A stretch of 64,000 nt of DNA from Rhodococcus pseudokoreensis. GTDB taxonomy: Bacteria > Actinomycetota > Actinomycetes > Mycobacteriales > Mycobacteriaceae. The notes under the pieces are model-generated. The model had not been told where the DNA came from. It did no database searches and saw only the letters and a list, made by a program, of their open reading frames with translations. Positions 30,542-53,013 of the stretch are shown here, in pieces (within the stretch, counting starts at the first letter, position 1; every line of letters begins with the position of its first letter). The translations under genes were made by a program, and so were the position numbers. The stretch is from the NCBI RefSeq assembly GCF_017068395.1, contig NZ_CP070619.1, forward strand, positions 1 to 64,000. Reading direction: 5' to 3'.

Positions 30542-30706
30542 GTTGTCAATGTTTTAACGTGAGGCGGGCGACCTCACCGCACTACACGCTGCCGCGTTCT
30601 TCCACCACCCGACGGGGCGTTCGGTAGGCAGATCAGCCCCTAGAATCGCCGGGACGAATAGTTGCCTGACCGTGCTCGACGGGTAACCAGAGAGGAGAGT
30701 GACACC

Positions 30707-33027: not shown

Positions 33028-34533
33028 CTACAACTTCATCCAGGTGCTCTTGAGCGTGGTGTACTTGTCGAGCGCGTGAAGTGATTTGTCGTGGGCACCG
33101 AACCCCGACTGCTTGTATCCCCCGAACGGGACGGTGATGTCGCTGCCGTCGTAGTTGTTGACCCACACCGTTCCCGCACGCAGCGCGCGAGAGACGAGGT
33201 GCGCTTTCGACAGGCTGGTGGTCCAGACCGCCGCGGCGAGGCCGAATTGCGTACTGTTCGCGATCCGCACACCCTCGTCGATGTCGTCGAAGGTCAGGAC
33301 GGAGAGCACCGGGCCGAACACTTCCTCGTTTGCGATCGTCATCTCCGGGGTGACGTTGTCGAAGATCGTGGGTTCCACGTAGTACCCGCCGGACTCGATC
33401 CGCGCCTGGGATCCACCGGTGAGGGTGGTCGCGCCCTCGTCGGTGGCTGTTGCAATGTATCCGAGGACGCGATGCAGGTGCTTCTCCTCCACCAGTGCGC
33501 CGACGGACGTCTGCGGGTCCAGGGGATCACCGACTGTCATCTTCGCGGCGGCTCGGAGCAGGTGCTCGATGAGTTCGTCCTTGCGGGACCGATGAACGAC
33601 GAGCCGGGACCCGGCCGAGCAGACTTCCCCTTGGTTGAAGAAGATCCCACTCGCAATGGATACCGCGATGTTGTCGAGTCCGGTGGCGTCCTCGAGAACC
33701 AATTGGGCGCTCTTCCCGCCGAGTTCGAGGGAGACCTCTTTCAGGTTCGAATCGGCGGACGCACGCAGCAGGGTCCGCCCGACCGGACCGGACCCGGTGA
33801 AGGTGATCGCATCGACGTCAGGATGAAGGCCGAGCGCGGCCCCGGCTGTGGCCCCGAAACCGGGGACGACATTGAGAACGCCGTCGGGTAGGCCGGCCTC
33901 GGCGGCGAGTTCGGCGAGCCTGATCGCAGTGAGCGACGAGGCTTCGGCCGGTTTGAGGACAACGCTGTTGCCGACCGCGAGGGCGGGGGCGAGTTTCCAG
34001 GCCGCAAGCATGAGCGGGAAGTTCCACGGCACGATCGCGGCGACCACACCATAGGGCTCGCGGGTGATGGTCGCGAAGGTGGTGCTGTCGGTCGGGGCGA
34101 CCTCGTCGTAGCGTTTGTCGATCGCCTCGGCGTAGAAGTCGAAGCACTGCACCGTGACCCGGATGTCGACGGCTCGGGCGTCGGCGACCGGCTTGCCCAT
34201 GTCCAGCGACTCGAGCAGGGCGAGTTCGTCGCCGTGTTGCTCGATCAGCCGCGCGAGGGCCTGCAGCACCCGGCGGCGGTCACGGGGATGTTGCTTGGTC
34301 CAGCGGCCGTCTTCGAAGGCGCGACGCGCCGACCGGACGGCGCGGTCGATGTCCCCGCGGTCGCCTTCGGCGATGGTGGTCAGGACCTGGCCGTCGCGGG
34401 GTGAGGTGCAGTCGAAGCGCCTGCCGGCGAGGGCGGGCACGAATGTGCCGTCGATGAAGGCATCGGTTCGCAGAGTCAGGCTCCGGGCCGTCTCGAGCAG
34501 GCGGTCCACCTCGGTGGGCACGGTGGTGGTCAT
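33028..34533 (-). CDS. Aldehyde dehydrogenase (PuuC-like) of the amine operon
   Basis: A 501-residue NAD(P)-dependent aldehyde dehydrogenase. The NAD-binding region includes VVAAIVPWNFPLMLAAWKLA and TFTGSGPVGRTLL. The general base is in LELGGKSAQL and the catalytic cysteine in NQGEVCSAGSR. EVFGPVLSVLTF and GGYKQSGFG close the active site. It starts 2 bases after the gamma-glutamyl hydrolase stop with GAAGGAGA as ribosome site, and is last in the operon. The PuuC group oxidises gamma-glutamyl-aminoaldehydes. Here the likely substrate is the gamma-glutamylated omega-amino aldehyde produced after P450 ring opening. Confidence 0.92.
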   Translation of the reverse strand: MTTTVPTEVDRLLETARSLTLRTDAFIDGTFVPALAGRRFDCTSPRDGQVLTTIAEGDRGDIDRAVRSARRAFEDGRWTKQHPRDRRRVLQALARLIEQHGDELALLESLDMGKPVADARAVDIRVTVQCFDFYAEAIDKRYDEVAPTDSTTFATITREPYGVVAAIVPWNFPLMLAAWKLAPALAVGNSVVLKPAEASSLTAIRLAELAAEAGLPDGVLNVVPGFGATAGAALGLHPDVDAITFTGSGPVGRTLLRASADSNLKEVSLELGGKSAQLVLEDATGLDNIAVSIASGIFFNQGEVCSAGSRLVVHRSRKDELIEHLLRAAAKMTVGDPLDPQTSVGALVEEKHLHRVLGYIATATDEGATTLTGGSQARIESGGYYVEPTIFDNVTPEMTIANEEVFGPVLSVLTFDDIDEGVRIANSTQFGLAAAVWTTSLSKAHLVSRALRAGTVWVNNYDGSDITVPFGGYKQSGFGAHDKSLHALDKYTTLKSTWMKL

Positions 34534-34535
34534 GG

Positions 34536-35291
34536 TCAGTTCTCCTTCGTTCGGACGAGGGCGCGGCCGAGTTCGTCGCGTCGTGCCCGGGCGATTCGAG
34601 CGCGCTCGACCGTGGTGTCGAACAGTGCTTGCTGGTGTGGTGCGGTGTCGGCGTTGTCTTCGGGGTGCCACTGCACGCCGAGCATCGGGGCACTTTCATG
34701 CTCGAGCACCTCGATGCAGCCGTCCTCGGCGCGGCCCACGACCTGCAGCCCGGCACCGAGCCGGTCCACGGCCTGGTGGTGATAGGAGGAGACCTCGACG
34801 ACGTGGCTGCCCATCGCTTGTGCGACCGCCGAGCCCGATTCCATCCAGACCTGGTGCATGCATTCGCGATGCCAGATGTGGCTGTCGGGTAGGTGCTGGA
34901 CCAGGGTGCCGCCGAGCGCCACGTTGACCACTTGCATGCCGCGGCAGATCGCGAGGAAGGGCAGTTCGAGCTCGATCACCGCCCGCGCGGTGGTCAGGTC
35001 GAACTCGTCCTGCACCGGATCCGATGCCTCCGTGCGGGGGTCACGTTCGGCGCCGTAGGTGGCGGGGTCGAGGTCGGCGCCGCCGGGCAGGACGACGCCG
35101 TCGAAGATCGTCAGGCGGTGGGTGATGGCGCGCCCCGGGGGCACGATGACCGGGTCGCCCCCTGCCCGGACGATCGCCTCGAGGATCTTGTCTGCGGCGA
35201 CCGTTCCGGAGCGTCGCAGACCGGCAATGGAGGCCGAGCGAATGCCGGGGACGGCAATCAGCGGCCGGGCATGGCCGTTGGCCTCACTCAT
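34536..35291 (-). CDS. Gamma-glutamyl-amine hydrolase (PuuD-like, class I GATase fold), copy 1
   Basis: A 251-residue peptidase C26 protein. The nucleophile elbow is LAICRGMQVVNVALGGTL, with Cys in CRG. The catalytic His/Glu pair lies in GVQWHPEDN. The N-terminal oxyanion region is DGVVLPGGADLDPATYG. PuuD-type enzymes hydrolyse gamma-glutamyl-GABA and analogues to free amino acid plus glutamate. The start overlaps the preceding solute-binding gene by 8 bases and the stop is 2 bases before the aldehyde dehydrogenase, so translation is coupled. A second, diverged copy is at 43472-44302. Having one in each arm of the cluster suggests two different gamma-glutamyl substrates. Confidence 0.9.
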   Translation of the reverse strand: MSEANGHARPLIAVPGIRSASIAGLRRSGTVAADKILEAIVRAGGDPVIVPPGRAITHRLTIFDGVVLPGGADLDPATYGAERDPRTEASDPVQDEFDLTTARAVIELELPFLAICRGMQVVNVALGGTLVQHLPDSHIWHRECMHQVWMESGSAVAQAMGSHVVEVSSYHHQAVDRLGAGLQVVGRAEDGCIEVLEHESAPMLGVQWHPEDNADTAPHQQALFDTTVERARIARARRDELGRALVRTKEN

Positions 35292-35991
35292 CGGCGGTGA
35301 GCGGGAAGGGCAGGTCCGACATCCACCGCTTCCACTCGACCTCGAGCGATCCGTCGGCGACGACCTTGTTCAGGGCCGCGTCGAGGTCGGTCCGGAGCGC
35401 GTCGTTGCCCTTGGCTACCGAGACACCCCACCGGTTGCGGGTGGCGACGGTGAACGCGACCGACAGATCGGCCTGCTCCCCGAGCGGTACGAGGGCGACA
35501 TCGTCGTCGACGACAGCGTCGACCTCGCCGTTGCGGAGGGCCTGGACCATGTCCCCGAGCACGTCGTCGGTGGCGCCGTCGAAGGGCACGGTGGTGACGT
35601 CGGGGAAGGTTTCGGCGAGGGCCAGGTTGGTGCTGCCGGCGATCGCCCCGACTCGCTTTCCGGCCAGGTCGCTTTCGGAGCCGATGCCGCTGTCGGCGAG
35701 AACGAGTACCGATTCGTCGAAGATGGCGTAGGGGCGGGTGAAGTCGACCAACTCCGCCCGAGTGGGGGTGATGCCCTGGCCGCACCAGATGCCGTCGCCC
35801 CGACCCTCCTGCAGGGCGGGCACCATGTCACTCCAGGAGGTGACGACCCACCGGATGGTCTTACCGAGCACTCCTGCGACGAGTTCAGCGGCTGAGGGCT
35901 CGTAACCGGTGCGGGTGCCGTCGGGGGCCGCCTTGTCGAACAGCGGCGGCGCGGGCAGGTCGACGCAAATCAGTTTCAGTTCGTTGCTCAC
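35284..35991 (-). CDS. Solute-binding protein family 3 domain without signal peptide
   Basis: A 235-residue SBP_bac_3 (amino-acid-binding) fold: VDLPAPPLFDKAAPDGTRTG at the start, GYEPSAAELVAGVLGKTIRW, the LTRAELVDFTRPYAIFDES-like hinge (PTRAELVDFTRPY), SDLAGKRVGAIAGSTNLALA and RNGEVDAVVDDDVALVPLG. It starts at GTG, whose last bases overlap the GlnA-like stop (GTGA), leaving no room for a signal peptide or lipobox. No ABC permease or ATPase gene is in the window. It therefore probably stays in the cytoplasm, where it could bind an amine or amino acid intermediate, for instance as an accessory or sensing subunit. Relatives in other gamma-glutamylation operons may exist, but I cannot verify this. 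Confidence 0.85.
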   Translation of the reverse strand: MSNELKLICVDLPAPPLFDKAAPDGTRTGYEPSAAELVAGVLGKTIRWVVTSWSDMVPALQEGRGDGIWCGQGITPTRAELVDFTRPYAIFDESVLVLADSGIGSESDLAGKRVGAIAGSTNLALAETFPDVTTVPFDGATDDVLGDMVQALRNGEVDAVVDDDVALVPLGEQADLSVAFTVATRNRWGVSVAKGNDALRTDLDAALNKVVADGSLEVEWKRWMSDLPFPLTADE

Positions 35992-37355: not shown

Positions 37356-37390
37356 CGGATGTCTCCTTGTGGTGTGGGTAGATCGCGGGG

Positions 37391-38659: not shown

Positions 38660-38663
38660 CGGG

Positions 38664-38855
38664 TCAGCTCTCGTCGAGGAAGATCGCTTGCACGGGGCAG
38701 ACGTCGGCGGCCTCTTCCACCTCGTCGCGCTGGGAGTCCTCGGGGTGCTTGTCGTACACAAGCTTCCCGTCGTCGCCCATCTGGAAGACCTTGGGCGCGG
38801 CGATGGCGCACTGCCCGTGGTCCTGGCACATTCCGTAGTCGACGCGAACGTCCAT
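38664..38855 (-). CDS. [3Fe-4S]-type ferredoxin
   Basis: A 63-residue bacterial P450 ferredoxin. Cysteines are at 10, 16 and 53 (GMCQDHGQC and DVCPVQAIF). The fourth position of a [4Fe-4S] motif is occupied by His13, so a [3Fe-4S] cluster is expected. The acidic C-terminal half (EDSQRDEVEEAADVCP) suits docking to reductase and P450. It is 43 bases downstream of the P450 and 4 upstream of the reductase. AAAGAGAGGT-like sequence precedes the ATG. Small ferredoxins of this kind are dedicated to neighbouring P450s in actinobacteria. Confidence 0.93.
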   Translation of the reverse strand: MDVRVDYGMCQDHGQCAIAAPKVFQMGDDGKLVYDKHPEDSQRDEVEEAADVCPVQAIFLDES

Positions 38856-38898
38856 TTCTTTACCTCTCTTACCGAAAACGAAGTGATGGTGGTGCGTG

Positions 38899-40098
38899 TC
38901 AACCGCGCTCGAACGCGATCGGCAGGAAGATCGGGCCGGTGTTGCCGCTGAGCGGCAGCCAGGTGGCGATACCGTCGATGGTCGGATTCTTCAGCCGCTG
39001 GGCGAGCAGGGGCAGTGCCTCGCTCATGTCGGAGCGGGCGACGAAGTGTCCGAGACAGTGGTGTGCGCCGCCACCGAAACCGAAGTGCGGCACCCGCTGA
39101 GCGGTCAGATCGAAGGGCTCGCCCTCGATCACTCGCGGGTCGGTACCGGCGGATTCGGACAACAGATGGATGGTGGTGCCGGCCTTGATCTCGAGCCCTT
39201 GGTACTCGAAGTCCTCGAGCGCCTCGCGGGTCACCCAGGTGACGGTCGGGTTGACGCGCATAACCTCTTCGACCGCCGCCTTGCCCAGCTCTGGGCGTTC
39301 GGCGAGCAGCTTCCACTGGTCGGGGTACTTCATGAACGTTTGCAAAGCGAGGCCCAGCTGGTTGCGGGTGGTGTCCATCCCGCCGAAAATCAGCAGGACC
39401 AGCGACACACGCAGCTCGTCGTGGCTGAGGTGTTCGCCGTCCCGTTCGGCCAGTACGAGCCGGCTGACGAAGTCGTCGCCCGGGTTCTTGCGGCGGTCGG
39501 CGATCAGTTCGTCGGCATAGGCGTATAGGCCTTCGAGCGCGGCCTCGACCTTGGCGAGGTCCTGCTTGAGCGTGACTCCCAGGGCCAGGCCGATGTCGTT
39601 GGACCAGGCGGCGATCTTCTTCCATTCGCTCTCGGGGATGCCGAGCATGATCGCGATGACGCGGGCCGCGTAGGGTTCGGCGAACTCGGAGGCGAAATCG
39701 CATCGGCCGCGGTCGTGGAACTCGTCGATCAGCTCGTTCGCGAGCGACTGGAACCTGGGAACCAGGCCGCCGATGAGCTTCGGGGAGAACGCGGGGTTCA
39801 TCAGTCGGCGCAGGCGATGGTGGTCGTCGCCCTCGAGGTTGAGCAGCGCGCTCGACCACCAGTGTGCGAACGGGCCTTCGTTGACTCCGTTGTGCGCCGG
39901 CCAGGCCCAGCTGCCCTGCCGCAGGCGCCTGTCCTTCATCAGCTTGCTGACCTCGTCATACCGCAGGACGGCGAGTCCGTAGCTGGTGTGGGCGAACCAG
40001 CTGGCCTCACGCGCCTGGCGGACGGCATCGGACTGGACCGAGAAGGTGGGGTCCGCCAGGTTGAGAAACGGTGCGTCGGTCAGTTGATCAGTGGGCAT
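38899..40098 (-). CDS. Cytochrome P450, CYP151-like (cyclic amine hydroxylase, inferred)
   Basis: A 399-residue soluble P450. The I-helix is LLIFGGMDTTRNQLGLAL (GMDTT at 240-244), ExxR is EVMR at 278-281, and the heme loop is FGFGGGAHHCLGHF with Cys348 as heme ligand. ATG at 40098 has AGGAG 8 bases upstream and overlaps the permease stop by 11 bases. Neighbours (dedicated ferredoxin and reductase, GS-like ligase, GntR regulator) match mycobacterial pip/mor loci, where CYP151 hydroxylates piperidine, pyrrolidine or morpholine next to nitrogen and causes ring opening. The RLRQGSWAWPAHNG region also seems CYP151-like to me. Family assignment and substrate are inferred; the P450 identity itself is certain. 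Confidence 0.93.
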   Translation of the reverse strand: MPTDQLTDAPFLNLADPTFSVQSDAVRQAREASWFAHTSYGLAVLRYDEVSKLMKDRRLRQGSWAWPAHNGVNEGPFAHWWSSALLNLEGDDHHRLRRLMNPAFSPKLIGGLVPRFQSLANELIDEFHDRGRCDFASEFAEPYAARVIAIMLGIPESEWKKIAAWSNDIGLALGVTLKQDLAKVEAALEGLYAYADELIADRRKNPGDDFVSRLVLAERDGEHLSHDELRVSLVLLIFGGMDTTRNQLGLALQTFMKYPDQWKLLAERPELGKAAVEEVMRVNPTVTWVTREALEDFEYQGLEIKAGTTIHLLSESAGTDPRVIEGEPFDLTAQRVPHFGFGGGAHHCLGHFVARSDMSEALPLLAQRLKNPTIDGIATWLPLSGNTGPIFLPIAFERG

Positions 40099-41707
40099 CG
40101 GTGGCTCCTGCGGGTTCGGGCTGAGGGTCGGGAGAAGTCGAGTGGGTGAGGCTGGGACGCTTGGGGATCGCGTCGCCGAAGGGCGCGGTTCCGTTGCTGT
40201 GGGAGCGGGCGAGGGCCATGTAGAGCAGGCCGGAGCCGATGACCGCGGCGCACAGCAGGGCGACGACGTAGTTGTCGTACCAGGGAGCGTCGGGTGTGCG
40301 TGGCCAGCTGATGTTGACGATGGCGGCGACGCCGTAGACGAGTGCGCCGACGTTGACCGGCATGGCCCACTTGCCGAGCTGGTACTTGCCGTTCGGGGTC
40401 CAGCCCTTGACGCGGGCACGCAGCGCGGCGAAGACCACCATTTGGAAGGCGATATAGATGCCGATGGCGCCGAAGCTGATCAGCTTGGTCAGGGCGTCGG
40501 TGGACACCGCCGACCCGATGATCAGGATGCCGGGGACGACTGCGGCGAACAGCAGCGCGTAGGGAGGGACGGCGCGGCGGTGATCGAACTTCGACCAGAG
40601 CCTGCTGCCGACGATCATTCCGTCGCGGGCGTAGGAGTAGATCAGTCGGCTCGCCGCCGCCTGCAGGCTCAGTGCGCAGGAGACGAACGAGATCAGCACG
40701 ACGACAATCACGATCTTAGAGCCCACCGGACCGAACGCGTCGCTGAGGATTGTCGCGACCGGATCCGCGTCCTCGCCGCTGATGACGGCGCCGAAGTCGA
40801 CCACGGACAGGATCAGGCTCAGGCACACGAAGGTCGCCGCGGCGCCGCCGATGTAGATGGTGCGGCGCATGGACTTCGGGATTTGCAGGCCGGGGTTCTC
40901 GACTTCCTCGGCGACGTCGCCGCAGGCCTCGAAACCGTAGTACTGAAAGACGCCGATCAGGCTGGCGGCGAGGAACGCATACAGGAAGCTGTGCGATCCT
41001 TGCGCCCCGAAACTGTCGAAGAGGACTCCCAGTCCGTGGTGGCGCTCGGTGAACAACAACCAGATTCCGACAACGAGCGCGCCGAGAAGCTCAGCCCCGA
41101 ATCCGAAGATAGCGGCGTAGCCCAGGACCTTGGTACCACCGAAATTGATGACGGTTGCCAGAATCAGCACTGCGAGGGCACACGTGATGGTCGTGGTCAC
41201 CGAGGGCGTAAAACCGACCACGGTGGCAACGAACGGACCCGCGCCGTAGGCGACGCCGGCGATCGTGGCGAGCAGGGCGAACAGGTAGACCCAGCCCGTC
41301 ATCCACGCCCACTTTCGGCCCCACAGGCGGCGCGCCCAGGGGTAGACACCGCCGGCTACCGGGAATTGTGCGACGACCTCGCTGAAGACCAGGGCCACCA
41401 GGAATTGGCCGATACCGGCGATCAGCAGGCTCCAGATCATCGGCGGTCCGGCAGCGACCAGCGCGATCGCGAAGACGGTGTAGATGCCGACCACCGGGGA
41501 CAGATAGGTGAAGCCGAGGGAAAAATTCGCCCACAGGCTCATATCTCGTTTGAACTCGGATTCGAAGCCGAGGGCGGCAAGTTGGGCGTCGTCGTCGGAA
41601 ATGGCGTCGTCAGGACGCAGGGGAGGCATTTGGGACACGGGACTCGTTCTTTCGTCGGGGGTACCGCGGGGCCGTGAGGGGGTGAACGGTTTTGTGGGGC
41701 CGGTCAC
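40088..41707 (-). CDS. APC-family amino acid/amine permease
   Basis: A protein of up to 539 residues with 12 hydrophobic helices. The APC signature in helix 1 is FSLGFTYLSPVVGIYTVFAI, followed by FPVAGGVYPWARRLWGRKW and the long loop YGFEACGDVAEEVENPGLQI with PKSMRRTIYIG. The 60 N-terminal residues are polar. The frame opens at GTG 41707, inside the left operator arm region, so a start nearer GTG of VSQMPPLRPD (about 41638) is also possible. It is first in the operon and overlaps the P450 by 11 bases. Likely role: uptake of the amine substrate, as in eukaryotic-type choline/GABA permease relatives. It is divergent from the GntR gene. Confidence 0.88.
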   Translation of the reverse strand: MTGPTKPFTPSRPRGTPDERTSPVSQMPPLRPDDAISDDDAQLAALGFESEFKRDMSLWANFSLGFTYLSPVVGIYTVFAIALVAAGPPMIWSLLIAGIGQFLVALVFSEVVAQFPVAGGVYPWARRLWGRKWAWMTGWVYLFALLATIAGVAYGAGPFVATVVGFTPSVTTTITCALAVLILATVINFGGTKVLGYAAIFGFGAELLGALVVGIWLLFTERHHGLGVLFDSFGAQGSHSFLYAFLAASLIGVFQYYGFEACGDVAEEVENPGLQIPKSMRRTIYIGGAAATFVCLSLILSVVDFGAVISGEDADPVATILSDAFGPVGSKIVIVVVLISFVSCALSLQAAASRLIYSYARDGMIVGSRLWSKFDHRRAVPPYALLFAAVVPGILIIGSAVSTDALTKLISFGAIGIYIAFQMVVFAALRARVKGWTPNGKYQLGKWAMPVNVGALVYGVAAIVNISWPRTPDAPWYDNYVVALLCAAVIGSGLLYMALARSHSNGTAPFGDAIPKRPSLTHSTSPDPQPEPAGATDAH

Positions 41708-41709
41708 AT

Positions 41710-41755
41710 CGATGTCTTAAACATATACAGTAATAGTTCATATTTCAAGACATCG
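41710..41755. promoter_or_regulatory. Wide-spaced inverted repeat in the divergent promoter
   Basis: CGATGTCTT at 41710-41718 and AAGACATCG at 41747-41755 are perfect 9-base inverted arms separated by 28 AT-rich bases (which include TATACAG and TAATAG). The region lies between the divergent permease and GntR starts. Two half sites spaced so widely suggest either two operator halves bridged by a GntR tetramer or a stem formed in the leader transcript. A decayed copy of this region lies at 53.03-53.08 kb. Confidence 0.6.
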
Positions 41756-41796
41756 GCGTTACGATCTTGTTAGCTCGACGACCTCAGGGGGTACCG

Positions 41797-42549
41797 GTGC
41801 CGATCGACCAGCTCGGAGGCTTGACCGCGCTCGGCGCTGTCCTCTCCCCGCTCGATGGCGGCGGCCCCCGCACGGATGCGGTCGTCCAGCGCATCTCCGC
41901 CGCTATCGGGCTCGGCGTGATGGTCGACGGCGAGCAGCTGCCGCCCGAATTGGACCTCGCCAGCCAACTCGGCGTCTCCACGGTGACCCTGCGCGAGGCG
42001 CTGGCGGTGCTCCGCAACGAGGGGCTCGTGTACACCAAGCGCGGACGCGGCGGGGGCAGCTTCGTCAAGGCATCGGCCGACGTCGTCCAGAGCAACTCGC
42101 TGACCAGGCTGCAGCAGCTGAGTGTGGAGGAACTGCGGGACATCGGTGACGAACACTTCGCGGTCTCCGGCGCAGCCGCCGCCCTGGCGGCCCGTCGGAG
42201 CCTGACCACCGACGTGGCCCGGTTGCGGGGTCTGGTGACCCGAATGCGGGAAACTGCCGAACCGTTCCAGTGCCGGCGCGCCGACAGCCGCTTCCACATC
42301 GAGGTCGCGGTGAGCTCGCAGTCGTCGCGATTGACCCGGACCGAGGTCAGCCTGCAAGCTGAGTTGTCGGCAATGATCTGGCTTCCGCAGGTTGCAGTCG
42401 ACCCGGCCGCGGAAGCCGATTCCCACCATGCTCTGGTGGATGCGATCGAAGCCGAGAATCCGGATCTGGCACGGGAACTGGCAGAATTCCACAGCACCAC
42501 CCACCTTCGCAGCCTGATCAAACTACGTATGGAGCTGAGGAACGAATGA
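41797..42549 (+). CDS. GntR-family (FadR subfamily) regulator, PipR-like by position
   Basis: A 250-residue regulator from GTG at 41797, with AGGGGG 6 bases upstream. The winged helix (residues about 30-85) includes LPPELDLASQLGVSTVTLRE, ALAVLRNEGLVYTKRGRGGG and SFV. The C-terminal all-helical FCD-type sensor has RRADSRFHIEVAVSSQSSRL and DSHHALVDAIEAENPDLARE, whose histidines commonly bind a metal in this family. It is divergent from the P450 operon and overlaps the Cache gene by 4 bases (ATGA). By position it resembles PipR, the GntR repressor of mycobacterial cyclic amine P450 operons. Repression through the nearby inverted repeat is inferred. Confidence 0.88.
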   Translation: MPIDQLGGLTALGAVLSPLDGGGPRTDAVVQRISAAIGLGVMVDGEQLPPELDLASQLGVSTVTLREALAVLRNEGLVYTKRGRGGGSFVKASADVVQSNSLTRLQQLSVEELRDIGDEHFAVSGAAAALAARRSLTTDVARLRGLVTRMRETAEPFQCRRADSRFHIEVAVSSQSSRLTRTEVSLQAELSAMIWLPQVAVDPAAEADSHHALVDAIEAENPDLARELAEFHSTTHLRSLIKLRMELRNE

Positions 42550-43286
42550 GTCCCGTCGATGACTCTCGGCTGCAGGCAGCGGTCGACTCGGTCGGGGAAG
42601 CGACGACGGACCTCGTCGAGGTCATCTACACTTCCCTCGTCGCGATCGGCGACGCATTGATCGAGCTGTGGACCAGGCTGCAGGCCGACGGAACGTCACC
42701 CCGATCGTCGGATCTCGAGTCGCTCAAGAGCACCGTGGTCGGCGAACTCGACGCCCGGGGCCCGCTGTTCAACGGCGCGGGCGTGGTCATGGCCGTTGGC
42801 AGCCTCGCCGATCGGCGACGATATCTCGAATGGTGGCGCGCCGACGGGGGCGGCCGCCCCGTTTCACAGCGGCTGGTTCTCGACCTCAATCCGCGCAGTG
42901 AGTACTACTACGACTACTCCGACATGGAATGGTTCACCATTCCCCGCGATCGGAACGAGAAGTGGGTCTACGGACCATATCTCGACTACACCGGCGTCGA
43001 CCTGTATGTGTGCACCTTCGCGGTTCCGATCAGGCTCAGCGATGGAACATTCCTGGGTGTCGCCGGCGCCGACGTGCCCGTGGCCAGCATCGAATCAAGG
43101 CTGTGGCCGCAGTTCCGCCGCGCGGAATCCGGTCTGGTCCTCGTCAATGCCGACGGTCGGGTCATCGTAGGTAACGATCCGGAGTACATCACTGGTTCGA
43201 AGGTCGCTTCCGTGGCCCGTTCCGGCGCAGCGGTGCCGGTGCGGGCCACTCCGTGGTCGCTGGTACCGCTTCACTCGGCGGACTAG
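42546..43286 (+). CDS. Stand-alone Cache-domain sensor protein
   Basis: A 246-residue protein with a Cache-type fold and no transmembrane helix, signal peptide or output domain. After a helical N-terminus (residues 1-65) comes YYYDYSDMEWFTIPRDRNEK followed by WVYGPYLDYTGVDLYVCTFA, then VPIRLSDGTFLGVAGADVPV. These are the signature strands of Cache domains that bind amines and amino acids. SGLVLVNADGRVIVGNDPEY is the membrane-distal style strand pair. It overlaps the GntR gene by 4 bases, so the two are made together. I infer that it senses the amine in the cytoplasm and acts on or with GntR, since Cache domains are usually extracellular parts of receptors. Confidence 0.82.
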   Translation: MSPVDDSRLQAAVDSVGEATTDLVEVIYTSLVAIGDALIELWTRLQADGTSPRSSDLESLKSTVVGELDARGPLFNGAGVVMAVGSLADRRRYLEWWRADGGGRPVSQRLVLDLNPRSEYYYDYSDMEWFTIPRDRNEKWVYGPYLDYTGVDLYVCTFAVPIRLSDGTFLGVAGADVPVASIESRLWPQFRRAESGLVLVNADGRVIVGNDPEYITGSKVASVARSGAAVPVRATPWSLVPLHSAD

Positions 43287-43406
43287 ACCCGACACGAGGT
43301 GGTCGACTTGCCGCGGCCACGGACATCGATCGCCGTCATCCTGCACTCGGACCATGGCGGCGAAATCATTGGCCACCCGATTCTTCGGACCGGGTGTAGA
43401 CGACGT

Positions 43407-43442
43407 GAGGCCGGGCGCGCTGATCGAGCGTCGCCCGGCCTC
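43407..43442. terminator. Bidirectional terminator hairpin
   Basis: GAGGCCGGGCG and CGCCCGGCCTC are perfect 11-base complementary arms around a 14-base loop, between the convergent Cache gene and the PuuD-like gene. No U-tract follows on either side, as is common in actinobacteria. Confidence 0.8.
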
Positions 43443-43471
43443 AACCAGGGATCCAGTTGTGCTGGAGTTCC

Positions 43472-44302
43472 TTACACCGCGGGTGTGGTTCGGCTTCCGC
43501 ATTTCGCCGCGGCATGCGCCGTTGAATGCTCGACGAACGAGCGGAACAAAGCCTCTCGATCCTCAGCCGACCCATCCGTGTCTTCCGGATGCCACTGCAC
43601 ACCCACGATCCATTTGCTTTCGTGTTCCACTGCCTCGACCACACCGTCTACACCACGGGCCACCACCCGTAAGCCCGCACCGACCTCGTTGACTGCCTGG
43701 TGATGTCCGTTGCGGACGATCATTCGCGATCGTGACAGGATCCGCGCAAGGCGCGAGTCTTCGGCAAGGATGACCGTGTCGTCGAGAAACATCGGCTCGC
43801 CGTCACGGCCCCGGTGGATGTTGTGTTCCCCCAGGTCCGGGATCAGCGTTCCACCACACGCGAGATTGATCATCTGCGAGCCGCGGCAAATGCCGAGTAT
43901 CGGCACCTCGAGCCCGAGCCCGGCGTCGATCGCCGCGAGAGTGCGTTCGTCGGTCCCGCGGTCGACGCCGTAGAGATTGCCGACGAAACCGGTATGCCCA
44001 TACAGGGTGGGATCGACATCTCCCCCGCCGAGCAGCATCACTCCGCCGGCCTCCTCGTCGATGGAGAAGGGCGCATCACGGGAGATGTCGATGACGTCGA
44101 CCCGAGCCCCCAGCTCGACCAACATGGTCAGCGCGGATCTGGTGAAACGTACGACGAGTGAGCGAGTCTCGGTCGTCAGACCAGGAAAGTTCAGGGGCAC
44201 CACGACGGTGATCAGTGGGCCGCATCCGTGCCCCGCACCTTCGGGGAGAACGTCGCCGAGAGTGATCGGGTCAATGCTCGGGCCAGTGGACATCGGGCTC
44301 AT
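43472..44302 (-). CDS. Gamma-glutamyl-amine hydrolase (PuuD-like), copy 2
   Basis: A 276-residue peptidase C26/class I GATase-fold enzyme. The nucleophile is in ILGICRGSQMINLACGGTLI, and the catalytic pair is in IVGVQWHPEDTDG. The glycine-rich oxyanion loop is GVMLLGGGDVDPTLYGHTG. It is clearly diverged from the copy at 34536-35291 (different N-terminus, RGS in place of RGM). Its ATG overlaps the stop of the aldehyde dehydrogenase upstream (4 bases), so it is the last gene of the right-hand operon. Predicted to release glutamate from a second gamma-glutamyl intermediate. The tail (AHAAAKCGSRTTPAV) runs close to the terminator hairpin. Confidence 0.9.
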   Translation of the reverse strand: MSPMSTGPSIDPITLGDVLPEGAGHGCGPLITVVVPLNFPGLTTETRSLVVRFTRSALTMLVELGARVDVIDISRDAPFSIDEEAGGVMLLGGGDVDPTLYGHTGFVGNLYGVDRGTDERTLAAIDAGLGLEVPILGICRGSQMINLACGGTLIPDLGEHNIHRGRDGEPMFLDDTVILAEDSRLARILSRSRMIVRNGHHQAVNEVGAGLRVVARGVDGVVEAVEHESKWIVGVQWHPEDTDGSAEDREALFRSFVEHSTAHAAAKCGSRTTPAV

Positions 44303-45765
44303 ATCCGGGCCTGCCCGCCCCGTAGGTACACCGTGGTGGTGTGGGTGAAGAATTCTCGCGCCGAGCGACCCTGTTCCTTCGGTCCGTATCCGCTCTTCTT
44401 CGCACCTCCGAACGGCACGTGCGGGTCGGCACCGGCGGATTCGGAGTTGATGTGCAAGATGCCGACGTCCAGGTCGTCGATGGCGTCCAGGGTGCGCGTG
44501 AGGTCCTGGGTGAAGACGGCGGCAGAGAGCCCGAACTCGCTGTCGTTCACCAGGGCGAAGGCCTCGTCGACGCTGCCAGCTCGCCGGACCGCCAATACCG
44601 GACCGAACAGCTCATCACGCCAGAGGTCGGGCGAGGGCGAGGGCAGCTCGAGGATGGTCGGGGGAACGAAATACCCTGCCGTCAAGGCGCCCTCGGAGTA
44701 GTCGTGGCCACCGGCGATGCGCTGCGCCCCTTGTTCGAAGGCACGATCGATCCCCGCCCGGATCGAGGAGCGGGCGGCCGCGTCGACCACCGGCCCCATC
44801 TCGATGCCGTCGTGAACGGGGTTGCCGACATTCAGTGCGTCGGCGCGCTTGCCGAGTTCGGCGAGGAAGTCCTCGGCGATGTCGTCGGTGACGATCAGCC
44901 GGGACGTCGCGGTGCACTTCTGCCCCGTCGAACGGAAGGCCCCCAACATCACCTGCTCGGCGGCCAGCTCGAGATCGGCGTCACCGAGGACGACGGCGGC
45001 GTTCTTGCCGCCCATCTCGGCCTGCACCGGGACACCGCGGGCGGCGCCGGCCGCGGCGATCCTGCGGCCGACACCGGTGGAACCGGTGAACGTGACCGCG
45101 TCGATGCCGGGATGCTCGACGATGCCGTTGCCGACAGCGCCGTTCCCGATCACCAGATTCAGTACACCGTCCGGCAGGCCCGCGTCGGTGAGTGCCTGGG
45201 CCAGGCGCATCGCCAGGAGAGGCACGGTGCTGGTCGGCTTCCAGACCACCGTGTTGCCGTAGGTCAGGGCCGGGGCAATCTTCCATGCCGGGATGGCGAT
45301 CGGGAAGTTGAACGGGGTGATCACCCCCACCACGCCGAGCGGTTTGCGGGTGACCATGATGCGTTCCCCGCGGCGCGGGGAGGAAAAGACCTCACCCGCG
45401 TCGCGGTCCGCGTCGTTGCCGTAATAGCGCAGGATCTGGGCCGCGCGCAGGACTTCACCGATGCCTTCGGGCTTGGTCTTGCCTTCTTCCCGGGCGAGTT
45501 CGGTGCCCCAGTCCTGGGCCGCGTTCTCCACGACCGCCGCCGCACGCACGAGGATCGCGCCCCGCTCGTGTGCGGGGGTGCGGGCCCATTCCCGCTTGGC
45601 CCGTTGGGCTGACGCGACCGCCCCGTCGAGTGCGGCGGTGTCAGCCAGTCGTCCCTGGGCGACGACGACGCCCGGCTCGGCCGGGCTGGTGCTGACGAGG
45701 ATGTCGCCGGCCCCGTCGAGCCATTGTCCGTCGACGAGATGGTGCAGTTGCGCGGGTGTAGTCAT
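44299..45765 (-). CDS. Aldehyde dehydrogenase (semialdehyde type), right-hand operon
   Basis: A 488-residue NAD(P)-aldehyde dehydrogenase. NAD-binding: VVGVITPFNFPIAIPAWKIA and VTFTGSTGVGRRI. General base: VQAEMGGKNAAVVLG. Catalytic cysteine: RSTGQKCTATSRLI. ELFGPVLAVRRAGS and PFGGAKKSGYGPKEQGRSA close the fold. The sequence has the character of the alpha-ketoglutarate/succinate/glutarate semialdehyde group. It lies 71 bases after the aminotransferase and overlaps PuuD copy 2. Likely role: oxidise the semialdehyde made by the aminotransferase (succinate or glutarate semialdehyde) to the dicarboxylate. Confidence 0.9.
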   Translation of the reverse strand: MTTPAQLHHLVDGQWLDGAGDILVSTSPAEPGVVVAQGRLADTAALDGAVASAQRAKREWARTPAHERGAILVRAAAVVENAAQDWGTELAREEGKTKPEGIGEVLRAAQILRYYGNDADRDAGEVFSSPRRGERIMVTRKPLGVVGVITPFNFPIAIPAWKIAPALTYGNTVVWKPTSTVPLLAMRLAQALTDAGLPDGVLNLVIGNGAVGNGIVEHPGIDAVTFTGSTGVGRRIAAAGAARGVPVQAEMGGKNAAVVLGDADLELAAEQVMLGAFRSTGQKCTATSRLIVTDDIAEDFLAELGKRADALNVGNPVHDGIEMGPVVDAAARSSIRAGIDRAFEQGAQRIAGGHDYSEGALTAGYFVPPTILELPSPSPDLWRDELFGPVLAVRRAGSVDEAFALVNDSEFGLSAAVFTQDLTRTLDAIDDLDVGILHINSESAGADPHVPFGGAKKSGYGPKEQGRSAREFFTHTTTVYLRGGQARI

Positions 45766-45836
45766 GTCGGGTTCACCTCAGGGTGCGGGTTGGGTGGCGA
45801 GAGTGGGCAGATCGGTCAGCGGACCATGTGCCGGGT

Positions 45837-47195
45837 TTACAGGGCCCCGACGGCGTCCCGGAGCACGGAGAAACCTTCGATGAGGAGTTCGTCCGAGATC
45901 GACAGCGGGGGCAGGAATCGCAGGACGTTGCCGAAGGTGCCGGCGGTCAACGTGAGCAGACCGTGGGCGAGGCAGTACCGGTTGATCGCGGCGACGGCCT
46001 CACGGTTGGGAGTCTTGGTGCCGGGCTGGACGAGCTCGATCGCCACCATGGCGCCGCGGCCGCGGATGTCTCCGATGATGTCGGTCTGGGCGGCGATATC
46101 GCGCAGTTCGCGGAACATGAGGTCGCCGATGACCTGTGCCCGCGCGAGCAGGTGGTCTTCCTCGATGGTGTCGAAGACTCCGAGAGCCGCCTCGCAGGCG
46201 GCGGGATTGCCGCTGTAGGTGCCGCCGATCCCGCCGGCGTGCGCGGTGTCCATGATCTCCGCACGGCCGGTGACGGCCGCGAGCGGCATCCCGCCGGCCA
46301 ACCCCTTGGCGGTCACGATCAGGTCCGGGACGACGCCCTCGTGCTCGGAGGCGAACCAGGTACCGGTGCGCGCGATGCCGGCCTGCACCTCGTCGGCGAC
46401 GAACACGATTCCGCGGTCCCGGCAGAAGTCCGCGATGCGGCGCAGGAAGCCCTCGGCCGGGACGATGAACCCACCCTCCCCCTGAATCGGCTCCACCACG
46501 ACGCAGGCCACCGCGTCGGCGCCGATCTGCGAGTCCACCAGCATCTCGAACTGGGCGAACGCCTCGTCCGCCGCATTCTCGGCGCCGCTCGGCCACCGGT
46601 ACGGGTATGCCATCGGCGCCCGGTACACCTCGGGGGCGAACGGACCGAACGTGCTCTTGTACGGCTGGTTCTTCGCCGTCATGGTCATCGTCATCAACGT
46701 GCGTCCATGGAAGGCGTGGTCGAAAGTGACCACGGCGGGCCGGCCGGTGGCCGCCCGCGCGTACTTCACGGCGTTCTCCACCGCCTCGCTGCCGGTATTG
46801 AACAATGCCGTCCGCTTCTCGTGATCGCCCGGGGTGAGCCGGTTGAGCGCCTCGGCGACCTCGATGTACGGCTCGTACGGGGTCGCGAGGAAACACGTGT
46901 GCGTGTACTTCGCCAACTGGCGGGACGCGCGCTCGACCACCCGTGGAGCCGCGTTACCGACCGTGGTGACCGCGATACCGCTGCCGAAATCGATGAACGA
47001 ATTACCGTCGACGTCGACCAGCACGCCGCCGCCCGCGGCCGCGGTGTAGATACCCGCACCGCTGGTCAACCCCGCCGGCAGAGCGGAGGATCGGCGGGCA
47101 GCGAGTTCCTGGGACCGGGGTCCCGGTACCTCGGTGACGATGCGGCGTACCTGCTCGAGCTGCGGTCCGCCAACGGGTGTGTGCACAGCAGTCAT
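45837..47195 (-). CDS. Class III omega-aminotransferase (GabT-like)
   Basis: A 452-residue PLP aminotransferase. The phosphate loop is NTGSEAVENAVKYARAATGR. The PLP ring is stacked by FDHAFHGRTLMTM and held by VFVADEVQAGIARTG (Asp of DEVQ). The Schiff-base lysine is in LIVTAKGLAGGMPLAAVTGR. This is the GABA/5-aminovalerate class. ATG at 47195 has GGAGG 8 bases upstream. The amino group from the omega-amino acid goes to 2-oxoglutarate, and the resulting glutamate is oxidised by the divergent glutamate dehydrogenase. It leads the right-hand minus-strand operon. Confidence 0.92.
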   Translation of the reverse strand: MTAVHTPVGGPQLEQVRRIVTEVPGPRSQELAARRSSALPAGLTSGAGIYTAAAGGGVLVDVDGNSFIDFGSGIAVTTVGNAAPRVVERASRQLAKYTHTCFLATPYEPYIEVAEALNRLTPGDHEKRTALFNTGSEAVENAVKYARAATGRPAVVTFDHAFHGRTLMTMTMTAKNQPYKSTFGPFAPEVYRAPMAYPYRWPSGAENAADEAFAQFEMLVDSQIGADAVACVVVEPIQGEGGFIVPAEGFLRRIADFCRDRGIVFVADEVQAGIARTGTWFASEHEGVVPDLIVTAKGLAGGMPLAAVTGRAEIMDTAHAGGIGGTYSGNPAACEAALGVFDTIEEDHLLARAQVIGDLMFRELRDIAAQTDIIGDIRGRGAMVAIELVQPGTKTPNREAVAAINRYCLAHGLLTLTAGTFGNVLRFLPPLSISDELLIEGFSVLRDAVGAL

Positions 47196-47358
47196 GTCGT
47201 GTCCTCCAGTCGGTTTACCGAGACTGTAGGAGCGAGGCCTCATCGACAGATATGGCCGAGTCGTATAACTACAAGTCTACTCATGGCCCAATTGGCTAAT
47301 CCCCATTTCGGCGTATCGCCCGCACACTTGCTGCACCGAGACTTGGAAGGAAACTGCG

Positions 47359-50300
47359 ATGGGCAACGGCGCCGCAATGGCAGATCGACTCGCATCACCC
47401 TTGGCTGTAGACGAACACGAGGCCATCGGCCGACTGCTGCTCACCAGCAGCGACCGAACGGAAACGCCGCGCATGGTATTCCTAGCCGATACCGTGAGTA
47501 ACGACGCCGTTGAGGCTGTAATTCTGTGGCCGAATGGGACACCTCTTCTCTCGGACGTCGCAAACGTCTTCGAGCACTTCGGACTACGGGTCGCAGACCG
47601 TGACACCATCCCGCTGCCGCCCGGCATGTCGGCCGACGCCGCACTCCACAAATTCATCTTCCGGGCACCACGGATATCAGCACCCCAGTCGCTCATCCGG
47701 GTCGCGGAGGCCTTCGAGGCGCAGACACTCCACGACTTCGAGGTCGATGACTTCGGCAAGTTGATCGCCGCTGTCGGCCTGTCCTGGCGGGAGATCGTTT
47801 TCGTCCGCGCCGCCAGCCGGTTCGTCCGCCAGGCCGGGCTCGGGTTGTCCGAGAGCTATGTCATCGACACCCTTCTGCAGCACACGCAGTTCGTCGAGTC
47901 GCTGGTCCGATACTTCGGCGCGCGGTTCGATCCTGAGCTGGTCGACCGCGGCGCGGTAGTCGCGGAAGCCGTTGCCGCAGTCCACGAACACCTCGATGCA
48001 GCAACGACCTTGGACGAAGACCGGATCATGCGGTCGCTGGAGTCGTTCGTCACCGCCTGCCTGCGGACGAACTGGTACCAACTCGAAACCGCCGGCATAC
48101 CGAAGCCCTACGTCTCGTTCAAACTCGACTCGAGCAGACTCGCTCTCACCGGACCCGTCGTTCCCTACCGCGAGATCTACGTGTACGCCAACGACGTCGA
48201 GGGCATCCATCTACGCGGCGGTGCCGTCGCGCGGGGCGGGCTGCGGTTCTCCGATCGTCCCGAGGACTACCGCACCGAGGTGCTGGGATTGATGAAAACC
48301 CAGACGGTGAAGAACTCCCCGATCGTGCCGGTCGGGGCCAAGGGCGCCTTCGTCCGAAAGAACCCGGATATCAGCCCTGCAGAAGCATATTCGACGTTCA
48401 TCAGGGGACTTCTGGACGTCACCGACAACATCGTCGACGGTCACACCGTTCCACCGGAACGGAGCGTCGCGTACGACGACCCGGACACCTACCTCGTCGT
48501 CGCCGCAGACAAGGGAACGGCATCATTCTCCGACCTGGCGAACGACATCGCCCTCGACGCCGGTTACTGGCTCGGCGACGCATTCGCCTCCGGCGGCTCG
48601 CGCGGATACGACCACAAAGCCATGGGAATCACCGCACGCGGCGCCTGGGTCTCGGTGCGCAGGCACTTCGACGAACTCGGCGTCGACGTGCACGGCGACC
48701 CGTTCACCGTCGTCGGTATCGGCGACATGTCCGGTGACGTCTTCGGCAACGGGATGTTGTTGTCCGAGTCGATCAAGCTCGTCGCGGCCTTCGATCATCG
48801 GCACATCTTCATCGATCCCGACCCCGATCCGGCCCGTTCGTTCGCCGAGCGCACACGTCTGTTTGCGCTTCCCGGAACCACCTGGGATCACTACGATCGC
48901 AACGCCCTGTCCACCGGTGCCGGTATCTGGCCGCGCACCGCCAAGCAGATCTCGCTCTCTCCCGAGGCCCAGCACGTACTCGGACTGCAGCAAAACCTGA
49001 TTTCACCGAACGAGCTGATCAAGGAAATCCTGACCGCCCGCGTCGACCTGCTGTGGAACGGCGGAATCGGTACCTATGTCAAAGCATCGACCGAAAGCCA
49101 CTCCGAGGCCGCCGATCCGGTCAACGACTCGGTGCGCGTGAACGCCGTCCACCTTCGCTGCGCAGTGATCGGCGAAGGCGGCAATCTCGGGTTGACGCAG
49201 CGAGCGCGAATCGAATACGCCCTCAGAGGTGGTCGGATCAATGCCGACTTCATCGACAACGCCGCCGGAGTCGCCACCTCGGACCTCGAAGTCAATCTCA
49301 AGATTGCACTCGATGTCGCGGTGCACAACGGACGAATCGACCGGGAAGAACGTAATGCGCTACTGGCTTCCTCCCGCCCAGATGTCGCCGACGCAGTTCT
49401 CAGAAACTGCGAGAGTCAAACGCTGGCAATCAGTCTCGCCGCATCTCAGGCACCGCAGCTGTTGAATCGGCACGAGCGGCTCATCGACAACCTCGAACAC
49501 AACAACGGCATCAACCGGGTAACCGAGGTGCTGCCGACGAAGAAGGAGCTGGTGTCGCGGACCCAGGCAGGCCTCGGACTCACACGCCCTGAGATCGCCG
49601 TCCTCCTCGCGCAGTCGAAGAACGTGGTGCAGGCGGACCTGCTCCACTCATCCGTTCCGGACGAACCGGTCTTCGCCACCGCCTTATCGGCATACTTTCC
49701 GCCCCGGATCCGCGCGCAACTCTCCCAGAAGGGAATCCGCGACCACCGCCTGGCCCGCGAGATCATAGCGACGAAGATCGCCGACGACCTCATCAATCAC
49801 GTGGGCCCCGGTCTGATCTATCAGCTCGACGAACGCCTCGGCGTCAAAACCCCGGCGGTCGCCAGGGCCTATGCGGTTGTCCGGGCTGTGTTCGACGTCG
49901 ACGAGCTGTGGGCGGACGCCGAACTTCGCACCGACATCACGCAGGCCGAACGCTGGGATCTCCTCCGCAATCTCCAGCACTTCATCGAGCGCACGGCCTC
50001 CTGGATCTTGCGCCGCCGCGCCTCGCCGCTGAACGTCGAAGCGGAGATCGATCGGTATCGCCCCAGCGTCCGTGAATTGGTCGCGAACCTTCCTCACCCG
50101 ACCACGATCGTCGAGACCACTGAGCGAATGCGATTCCTCTGCGAGGTGCTGGACCTGATCGAGACCGCCCGGCGCTGCTGCTGCCCTGTCGACACCGCCG
50201 CAGCCGTCTTCGCCCGAACGGACTCCCTGCTCGGACTGACCTGGTTGACCGGGCGCCTCGAGCACCACGCCACGAACAACTGGTGGGATGCGATGGCGGC

Positions 50301-50559
50301 CGCGACAGTGCGCGGCGACCTGGCCGAACGCCATCATGCGCTGGTCGGAGCCATCCTCGATCTCGACACCGGACACGAAGACCAGGTGCTCGTCTGGCAG
50401 GAACGCGCGGCAGACGCCATCAACCGCTTCTCCCGTATCACCGCCGAACTCCGGCGCGACGGCGTGGTCGACGTCTCCCGTGCGTGCACAGCCGGTGCCG
50501 AGCTGAAGCTGCTGGTCCGGAGCACCGGTGCTGGCGGAGCCGGGGATACCACCGCATGA
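47359..50559 (+). CDS. Large NAD-specific glutamate dehydrogenase, short (about 115 kDa) form
   Basis: A 1066-residue NAD-GDH. The catalytic core includes RGGLRFSDRPEDYRTEVLGL followed by MKTQTVKNSPIVPVGAKGAF (glutamate-binding lysines), DKGTASFSDLANDIALDAGY and VVGIGDMSGDVFGNGMLLSE (NAD-binding). A helical C-terminal domain follows (LTRPEIAVLLAQSKNVVQAD, LPTKKELVSRTQAGL). The common mycobacterial form has about 1600 residues with several N-terminal ACT-like repeats; here most of that regulatory N-terminus is absent. The ATG at 47359 has GGAAGGAAA 7 bases upstream, so the short form seems genuine. Placed divergent from GabT, it would regenerate 2-oxoglutarate and drain ammonia from amine breakdown. 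Confidence 0.9.
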   Translation: MGNGAAMADRLASPLAVDEHEAIGRLLLTSSDRTETPRMVFLADTVSNDAVEAVILWPNGTPLLSDVANVFEHFGLRVADRDTIPLPPGMSADAALHKFIFRAPRISAPQSLIRVAEAFEAQTLHDFEVDDFGKLIAAVGLSWREIVFVRAASRFVRQAGLGLSESYVIDTLLQHTQFVESLVRYFGARFDPELVDRGAVVAEAVAAVHEHLDAATTLDEDRIMRSLESFVTACLRTNWYQLETAGIPKPYVSFKLDSSRLALTGPVVPYREIYVYANDVEGIHLRGGAVARGGLRFSDRPEDYRTEVLGLMKTQTVKNSPIVPVGAKGAFVRKNPDISPAEAYSTFIRGLLDVTDNIVDGHTVPPERSVAYDDPDTYLVVAADKGTASFSDLANDIALDAGYWLGDAFASGGSRGYDHKAMGITARGAWVSVRRHFDELGVDVHGDPFTVVGIGDMSGDVFGNGMLLSESIKLVAAFDHRHIFIDPDPDPARSFAERTRLFALPGTTWDHYDRNALSTGAGIWPRTAKQISLSPEAQHVLGLQQNLISPNELIKEILTARVDLLWNGGIGTYVKASTESHSEAADPVNDSVRVNAVHLRCAVIGEGGNLGLTQRARIEYALRGGRINADFIDNAAGVATSDLEVNLKIALDVAVHNGRIDREERNALLASSRPDVADAVLRNCESQTLAISLAASQAPQLLNRHERLIDNLEHNNGINRVTEVLPTKKELVSRTQAGLGLTRPEIAVLLAQSKNVVQADLLHSSVPDEPVFATALSAYFPPRIRAQLSQKGIRDHRLAREIIATKIADDLINHVGPGLIYQLDERLGVKTPAVARAYAVVRAVFDVDELWADAELRTDITQAERWDLLRNLQHFIERTASWILRRRASPLNVEAEIDRYRPSVRELVANLPHPTTIVETTERMRFLCEVLDLIETARRCCCPVDTAAAVFARTDSLLGLTWLTGRLEHHATNNWWDAMAAATVRGDLAERHHALVGAILDLDTGHEDQVLVWQERAADAINRFSRITAELRRDGVVDVSRACTAGAELKLLVRSTGAGGAGDTTA

Positions 50560-52819: not shown

Positions 52820-53013
52820 CCTCTCGGTCTTCCTATGGTGCCGATCACTCCATGAACATGGAAATGCATGGTTCATGGTTCAACGCTTTTAAGTTTCGAC
52901 ATTGTTACCGCCGCACTCGCGAGTCGAGCGTGACGCGCGCGACCGAGTTGTCCAGTCCGGCAAGGTGACATCCAGGACGTGCGGGTCGGAAACCCGACGG
53001 GTTCGGCCGCCCG

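Follow-up and report, generated by a model that had tools for sequence, protein, structure and literature searches.

The CYP151 enzymes of the mor and pip loci are among the closest described counterparts of the gene cluster analysed here. MorA, acting with a ferredoxin and a reductase, is reported to oxidise free morpholine, and pipA is induced on piperidine (PMC9477822). CYP151-fdx-glnA operons have been described in polycyclic aromatic hydrocarbon-degrading Mycobacterium (PMC10516948), and the piperidine/pyrrolidine regulator MSMEG_6700 is FadR-like (PMC2018728). The isopropylamine (Ipu) pathway of A. aurescens TC1 comprises a permease, a cytochrome P450, a ferredoxin, a reductase, IpuC, an amidotransferase and an aldehyde dehydrogenase (PMC6776027), while operons of an intracellular dCache_1AM protein and a transcription factor occur in Rhodococcus and other Actinobacteria (PMC10104139). 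The DNA analysed is a window of 64,000 nt, taken as a whole stretch from Rhodococcus pseudokoreensis NZ_CP070619.1 (genome 9.87 Mb), and the system in question is a cluster around a P450 gene of the CYP151/PipA type. The cluster belongs to a CYP151-type amine module that is widespread and ordinary in its core, with the Ipu system as a published precedent. Beyond this core, the notable features are a leaderless substrate-binding protein of the SBP_bac_3 family (SBP) and a predicted amine-sensing Cache/GntR pair. The module is probably induced by an amine and probably degrades it via gamma-glutamyl intermediates, in whichever order the steps occur. The main interpretation of a first-pass annotation of this DNA was largely right in kind.

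The P450 carries the ExxR, GGMDTT and FGFGGGAHHCLG motifs. It shares 70% identity with the M. smegmatis member P0141 over 397 aligned positions and likewise 70% with Q5EGS5_9MYCO (P0159) over 386 positions, the mutual identity of these two being 87%. In P450 nomenclature, identities above 40 and 55% define a family and a subfamily, respectively, and both thresholds are exceeded here. The top named relative among the matches listed was found in Rhodococcus wratislaviensis with 95%. Matches at E<=1e-80 occurred in 54 of 395 mycobacterial genomes and fell into two groups separated by a gap: 51 genomes hold clade members (51-86% identity where the gene is unbroken), and the remaining three each hold a single match of 38-40%. 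In the genomes G406 and G441 the P450 match lies in two pieces (65-73%), which suggests a disrupted gene or a sequencing frameshift, and an SBP match is present.

A quick tree, for which treekit gave a long-branch warning and from which L012 was left out, clustered the P450 with rows of 51-95% identity, apart from five other P450s of its own genome. Six rows formed a supported subclade, namely the window P450, R. wratislaviensis, a Rhodococcus metagenome-assembled genome, two Mycobacterium and Millisia brevis (L030). This subclade was separate from the larger set containing the pip-type mycobacterial rows, within which a second P450 of Millisia brevis (L043) was placed. With 70% identity to the M. 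smegmatis clade member, the enzyme groups with CYP151, in a subclade of its own, and not with terpene or steroid enzymes, in agreement with the first-pass annotation. A terpene or steroid P450 was rejected as a candidate, as the best NCBIfam P450 match, pentalenolactone synthase, reached 125.5 against a cut-off of 700. The closest solved structure was 3p3l, which we take to be the biosynthetic P450 AurH.

The top solved relatives of the glutamine synthetase (GS)-like ligase were a glutamate-methylamine ligase (9qur, 179.8 bits), a type III glutamate-ammonia ligase (170.8 bits), presumably GMAS, and an archaeal GS (156.2 bits). A His of the ligase aligns with the Asp of the FDGSS motif in the GS 4s0r, whose species we take to be B. 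subtilis and whose Asp is presumably the ammonia site. Judged by sequence, these relatives and the change from Asp to His fit a putative amine rather than ammonia as acceptor and do not indicate which amine. Both hydrolases retain the CRGxQ nucleophile motif and HPE, and the top NCBIfam family of both is PuuD. GabT passes its NCBIfam cut-offs (TIGR00700 with 575.7 against 506.65, NF004714 with 710 bits).

The spread of the module was followed in P450-anchored loci, the best 80 of at least 488 relatives from one genome scan, in which partners were counted with window-protein queries at chosen score thresholds. The counts are lower bounds and are not independent, because the loci are P450-selected and interrelated and 20 of them do not reach 21 kb in length. 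The GS-like ligase was found in 72 loci, followed by the SBP (65), GntR (63), Cache (61), the ferredoxin (60), the permease (56), hydrolase 1 (GAT1, 55), the reductase (51) and hydrolase 2 (GAT2, 49). GabT occurred in 20, aldehyde dehydrogenase 1 (ALDH1) in 19, PucR in 17, ALDH2 in 13 and glutamate dehydrogenase (GDH) in 6 loci. At least one C26 hydrolase was present in 59/80 and both in 45/80, and GS and SBP occurred together in 64/80. The SBP and the dCache protein, both overlooked in the first-pass annotation, are among the more conserved components. The loci belong to Rhodococcus, Mycobacterium, Streptomyces, Nocardioides, Arthrobacter, Brevibacterium, Kineosporia and Actinomadura, and also to Halomonadaceae and other Pseudomonadota. 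Comparable gene orders across many genera of Actinobacteria show that the locus is more than a chance arrangement.

From gene content, domains, motifs, conservation and the folds of two models, the following reactions, their order, the substrate and the ligand of the SBP are predicted. A small amine would be imported by the permease, and the cytosolic dCache protein would sense the free amine and, with its GntR/FCD partner, turn on the divergent operon. The P450, supplied with electrons by its own ferredoxin and reductase, would oxidise the carbon next to the nitrogen, and the product of a cyclic amine would open to an amino-aldehyde. The GS-like ligase would add glutamate to the nitrogen and so prevent re-closure of the amino-aldehyde, ALDH1 would yield the gamma-glutamyl omega-amino acid, and the C26 hydrolases would free glutamate and the amino acid, which for pyrrolidine would be 4-aminobutyrate (GABA). 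The amino acid would be converted to a dicarboxylate by GabT and ALDH2, with 2-oxoglutarate restored by GDH, and the cytosolic ligands of the leaderless SBP would be the gamma-glutamyl intermediates. Pyrrolidine would fit the GABA arm, and with this substrate the route would run from 4-aminobutanal over gamma-glutamyl-4-aminobutanal, gamma-glutamyl-GABA, GABA and succinic semialdehyde to succinate.

If the amine is indeed degraded through gamma-glutamyl intermediates, the balance tips towards oxidation before ligation, because free morpholine is the reported substrate of MorA and its partners (PMC9477822). In the reverse, Ipu-like order, the route would start with the ligase, whose substrate would be the free amine, either cyclic or isopropylamine-like; the P450 would then hydroxylate the gamma-glutamyl amide, and the hydrolases would release an amino alcohol or amino acid. 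This is the order given for isopropylamine in A. aurescens TC1, in which the pTC1 genes numbered 65-69 are the amidotransferase, the P450, the ferredoxin, the reductase and IpuC (PMC6776027). For a cyclic amine, this order would lead to the gamma-glutamyl aldehyde of the oxidation-first route as well, by ring opening of an N-acyl hemiaminal. The Ipu-like order has to be taken seriously as the less probable of the two, the report on MorA and free morpholine speaking against it.

Several observations weigh against the proposed route and its assignments. The ligase of the Ipu pathway acts before the P450 (PMC6776027). In the window, the solved-structure scores part the amine ligases from the true GS modestly (179.8 and 170.8 versus 156.2 bits), and the ligase stays under the NCBIfam cut-offs for gamma-glutamylputrescine synthetase (203.1 against 650) and type III glutamate-ammonia ligase (280 against 470). 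The two hydrolases score 84.5 and 69.1 against the PuuD cut-off of 266, ALDH1 scores 579.4 bits against 850 for PuuC, and ALDH2 scores 495.9 bits against 770 for alpha-ketoglutaric semialdehyde dehydrogenase. The ligase, ALDH1 and both hydrolases accordingly lie below the Puu equivalog cut-offs (PuuA, PuuC and PuuD). ALDH1-like matches in 19/80 and GabT in 20/80 loci mean that the complete route is not universal. The P450 lies in its own subclade, and its substrate may therefore differ from that of PipA and MorA. The names themselves are assumptions, as P0141 is taken to be PipA and P0159 to be MorA-type from species name and clade, not from a published accession. For P0141 the assignment is based on its being the clade's M. 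smegmatis member, on the reported CYP151-fdx-glnA operons and the FadR-like MSMEG_6700, which matches the GntR/FCD regulator found here. The gamma-glutamyl route of the first-pass annotation is thus upheld for the presence of its enzymes by family and for a ligase near glutamate-methylamine ligase; for the ALDHs, the hydrolases and the ligase it does not extend to equivalog level.

The Cache protein was modelled with AlphaFold2 (AF2) at a pLDDT of 92.9, and its first fold matches were PacA, McpU, McpX, TlpQ, PctD, MkcA, CqsR and 3lib, which are mostly amine receptors. Its M127 aligns to the Arg position of PctA, presumably R126, and across 35 relatives this position is Met in 26 and Arg in two. 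D147 and D176 are kept in 35/35, and W129, F130 and Y145 are kept as well. W96, T157 and D176 (35/35) are possible, unmapped counterparts of W155, S217 and D235 in PctD, whose full AM motif also takes in R103 and D133. Compared with the published definition of the dCache_1AM motif (PMC10104139), the protein has the dCache_1 fold, has lost the positive position of the amino-acid motif, and retains the aromatics and the final Asp. The GntR gene occurred without Cache in L048 and L050. The FadR-like operator TNGT-N2..4-ACNA is absent from positions 41401-42000, between the permease and GntR. An inverted repeat (GATGTCTT/AAGACATC) was recognised by eye in the AT-rich stretch 41700-41765 between these genes; it is not kept in R. 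wratislaviensis, in which the inner part is similar.

The GTG start of the SBP overlaps the GS stop, and the best 19-residue hydropathy within the first 60 residues is 0.97. Judged from start position and N-terminal hydropathy, neither a secretion signal nor a lipoprotein anchor was found for the SBP. The start-position check covered 62 of 66 SBP matches and left out L030, L057, L087 and L088, which have no GS just upstream. In the 62 GS-adjacent relatives, the earliest in-frame start falls between -15 and +3 nt relative to the GS stop and precedes the domain by no more than 22 residues (median 1), and the first 30 residues hold at least four charged residues in 61 of the 62. ATP-binding cassette (ABC) permease or ATPase domains were found in none of the 20 open reading frame products scanned between 30.6 and 55.5 kb. 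The SBP seems to stay inside the cell. Of the 395 mycobacterial genomes, those with the SBP are the same 51 as those with this P450 clade, and the two genes lie no more than 4.1 kb apart. No SBP or Cache gene beside CYP151 was found in the parts of the literature searched, and the SBP is not claimed to be unpublished.

R76 and D161 of the SBP are kept in 40/40 and are aligned with an Arg and an Asp in 4zv1, an ancestral Arg binder. In amino-acid-binding SBP_bac_3 proteins, the Arg presumably binds the alpha-carboxylate and the Asp the alpha-amino group. Gamma-glutamyl-amides would fit as ligands because their free alpha-amino and alpha-carboxyl groups suit the conserved Asp and Arg. We tentatively propose that two ligand-binding folds usually active beyond the membrane have been brought into the cytosol in a single amine operon. 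The dCache protein would read the free amine for GntR, and the leaderless SBP would capture gamma-glutamyl-amides, either as a carrier between the ligase, the P450/ALDH and the hydrolase or as a feedback sensor. Such a carrier or sensor would accompany CYP151-type amine catabolism in Actinobacteria. The fold matches of the SBP model include an enzyme, cyclohexadienyl dehydratase, together with its ancestral precursor AncCDT-1, and C7, C68, N120 and E29 are further invariant positions (each 40/40). The SBP gene also follows the P450 gene rather than GS in L030, L087 and L088. These points would suit an enzyme of the route, such as a dehydratase, instead of a carrier or sensor, but that role appears unlikely, as the Arg/Asp pair known from amino-acid binders is fully retained and binders of amino acids and opines share the top rank of the fold matches in a tie. 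The close spacing of GS and SBP (median 2 nt across 62 loci, within 40 nt in 58) could mean that the SBP regulates the ligase, as a subunit or as an allosteric partner. This is doubtful to a greater degree, since L030 has an SBP but no GS match in its 21 kb, the SBP lies apart from GS in L087 and L088, and GS without SBP in eight loci (L097-L101 and L103-L105) counts against tight coupling. A GS-SBP fusion was rejected, as the two occupy different open frames wherever both were found. A plain Puu pathway for putrescine or other polyamines, with an unrelated role for the P450, is very improbable: PuuC-like, PuuD-like, GabT and GS-like genes are all there, but the ligase reaches 203 of the 650 set for gamma-glutamylputrescine synthetase, 72 of the 80 P450-selected loci have GS close to the P450, and P450 and SBP co-occur in 51/51 mycobacterial genomes.

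The composition of the module varied among the loci. The alphaproteobacterial-type loci (L010, L014, L097-L100 and L103-L105) had no SBP or Cache match, and their P450 relative lies beside two GS-like matches, one weak (46-59 bits) and one of about 350. In L010, the genes next in line are annotated as an ABC transporter that has a substrate-binding protein of its own. Five mosaic Mycolicibacterium loci (L078, L079, L081, L091 and L093) combine a window-like permease, GntR, Cache, GabT and GDH with a pip-type P450, GS, SBP and hydrolases, and GabT and GDH stand side by side in all of them. Sensor, uptake and product arm seem to move together in these loci, which hints that the second arm suits the imported amine.

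On plasmid pGKT2 of Gordonia sp. KTR9 (L009, 10482-17493), GntR, Cache, a P450 (67%) and a GS-like match immediately precede two further genes, for an FAD oxidoreductase and another P450, which we take to be xplB and xplA of the RDX plasmid. Here, explosive-degradation genes appear joined to a copy of the amine module. On plasmid p2 of Paracoccus sp. TOH (L014, 11962-14883), a single stop-free frame of 974 codons spans a P450 relative and a flavoprotein of the sulfite-reductase type, an apparent P450-reductase fusion of which the annotation shows the flavoprotein part only. A plasmid of Streptomyces sp. NBC_00111 (L012, 9354-13089) carries a 47% P450 relative, a ferredoxin and a reductase between ectA and ectoine synthase, in surroundings that look like a biosynthetic cluster.

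The minus-strand run from the permease to ALDH1 is tightly packed, GntR and Cache are divergent from it, and a second minus-strand group of GAT2, ALDH2 and GabT follows. The 3' end of the permease gene overlaps the P450 start, and junction overlaps in the DNA were GTGA at GS/SBP, ATGAGTGA at SBP/hydrolase and ATGA at GntR/Cache. The permease, P450, ferredoxin, reductase, ligase, two hydrolases, two ALDHs, GabT and GDH named in the first-pass annotation are all present (Table 1), and the SBP, Cache, GntR/FCD and PucR genes are additions to it. In R. wratislaviensis, a PucR relative lies at the same place, adjoining ALDH1. Beyond GDH, an amidohydrolase-family gene occurs on the minus strand (51422-52876). 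ARAGORN found no tRNA genes in the whole window.

Table 1. Genes of the amine cluster and its surroundings in the Rhodococcus pseudokoreensis window.
Feature	Position	Strand	Domain or family evidence
PucR-type regulator near ALDH1, possible second regulator	30662-32269	plus	Pfam PucR, HTH_30
Aldehyde dehydrogenase 1 (ALDH1), PuuC-like	33028-34533	minus	top NCBIfam PuuC
Peptidase C26/PuuD-like gamma-glutamyl hydrolase 1 (GAT1), putative	34536-35291	minus	Pfam C26 178.5 bits; Cys116, HPE
Leaderless SBP_bac_3 protein, 235 aa, GTG start	35284-35991	minus	
GS-like gamma-glutamyl-amide ligase (putative), 455 aa	35988-37355	minus	Pfam Gln-synt_C
FAD/NAD(P)H ferredoxin reductase, 422 aa	37391-38659	minus	Pfam Pyr_redox_2 213.9 bits
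[3Fe-4S]-type ferredoxin, 63 aa, exactly three Cys (10/16/53)	38664-38855	minus	Pfam Fer4_13/Fer4_15
Cytochrome P450, CYP151/PipA-type, 399 aa	38899-40098	minus	Pfam p450
APC-family amino acid/amine permease, GTG start	40088-41638	minus	Pfam AA_permease_2
GntR regulator with FCD domain, FadR-like, PipR-like in kind	41767-42549	plus	Pfam GntR+FCD
Solo dCache_1 protein, no membrane anchor seen	42546-43286	plus	Pfam dCache_1
Peptidase C26 hydrolase 2 (GAT2)	43472-44302	minus	Pfam C26 131.9 bits; Cys139, HPE
Aldehyde dehydrogenase 2 (ALDH2), semialdehyde dehydrogenase-like	44299-45765	minus	top NCBIfam alpha-ketoglutaric semialdehyde dehydrogenase
GabT, 4-aminobutyrate:2-oxoglutarate transaminase	45837-47195	minus	TIGR00700, NF004714 above cut-off
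NAD-type glutamate dehydrogenase (GDH), 1066 aa, divergent from GabT	47359-50559	plus	Pfam Bac_GDH_CD 747.1, GDH_C, GDH_HM3

To our knowledge, the role of the GS-like gene beside CYP151 is not settled. As the block of GS, SBP and C26 hydrolase is frequent, gamma-glutamylation is the leading, testable answer. The module joins two separately published stories, that of the CYP151 amine oxygenases and that of the dCache/GntR pairs that sense amines within the cell. Intracellular binding of pathway intermediates by the SBP, if real, would be a new use of a transport-receptor fold. The related GntR-Cache-P450-GS set on pGKT2 bears on the assembly of xenobiotic degradation genes.

The mor locus reportedly has the gene layout morABC-orf1'. 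The mor/pip-type order of P450, ferredoxin, reductase and GS-like gene, together with a GntR/FadR-type regulator, is present here, and the P450-fdx-glnA layout is published (PMC10516948). The locus resembles the CYP151 mor/pip loci in its P450 (70% to the M. smegmatis member), the P450-ferredoxin-glnA layout and the FadR-like GntR regulator, while it differs in its own P450 subclade, and hydrolases, ALDHs, GabT, GDH, SBP and Cache are also seen here.

The combination of genes had been called unusual, which is not supported, because the Ipu pathway already joins a P450, a gamma-glutamyl ligase, an amidotransferase and an ALDH (PMC6776027), and both C26 hydrolases occur together in 45 of the 80 loci. 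By description of gene inventory, the Ipu systems of A. aurescens TC1 and Pseudomonas KIE171 share the permease, P450 system, gamma-glutamyl ligase, hydrolase and ALDH with the window, whereas the Ipu substrate is linear and its ligase precedes the P450. The Puu pathway is alike by family in its ligase, aldehyde oxidation, C26 hydrolysis and transamination. It is unlike the window in that a flavin oxidase, reportedly PuuB, takes the place of the P450 system, and the window ligase lies well below the gamma-glutamylputrescine synthetase cut-off. The published dCache_1AM operons, Rhodococcus included, likewise have a stand-alone Cache gene overlapping a GntR gene (PMC10104139). The words "P450" and "glutamine" do not occur in the main text of that paper, and the link of the dCache_1AM/GntR pair to the P450 module is made in the present analysis.

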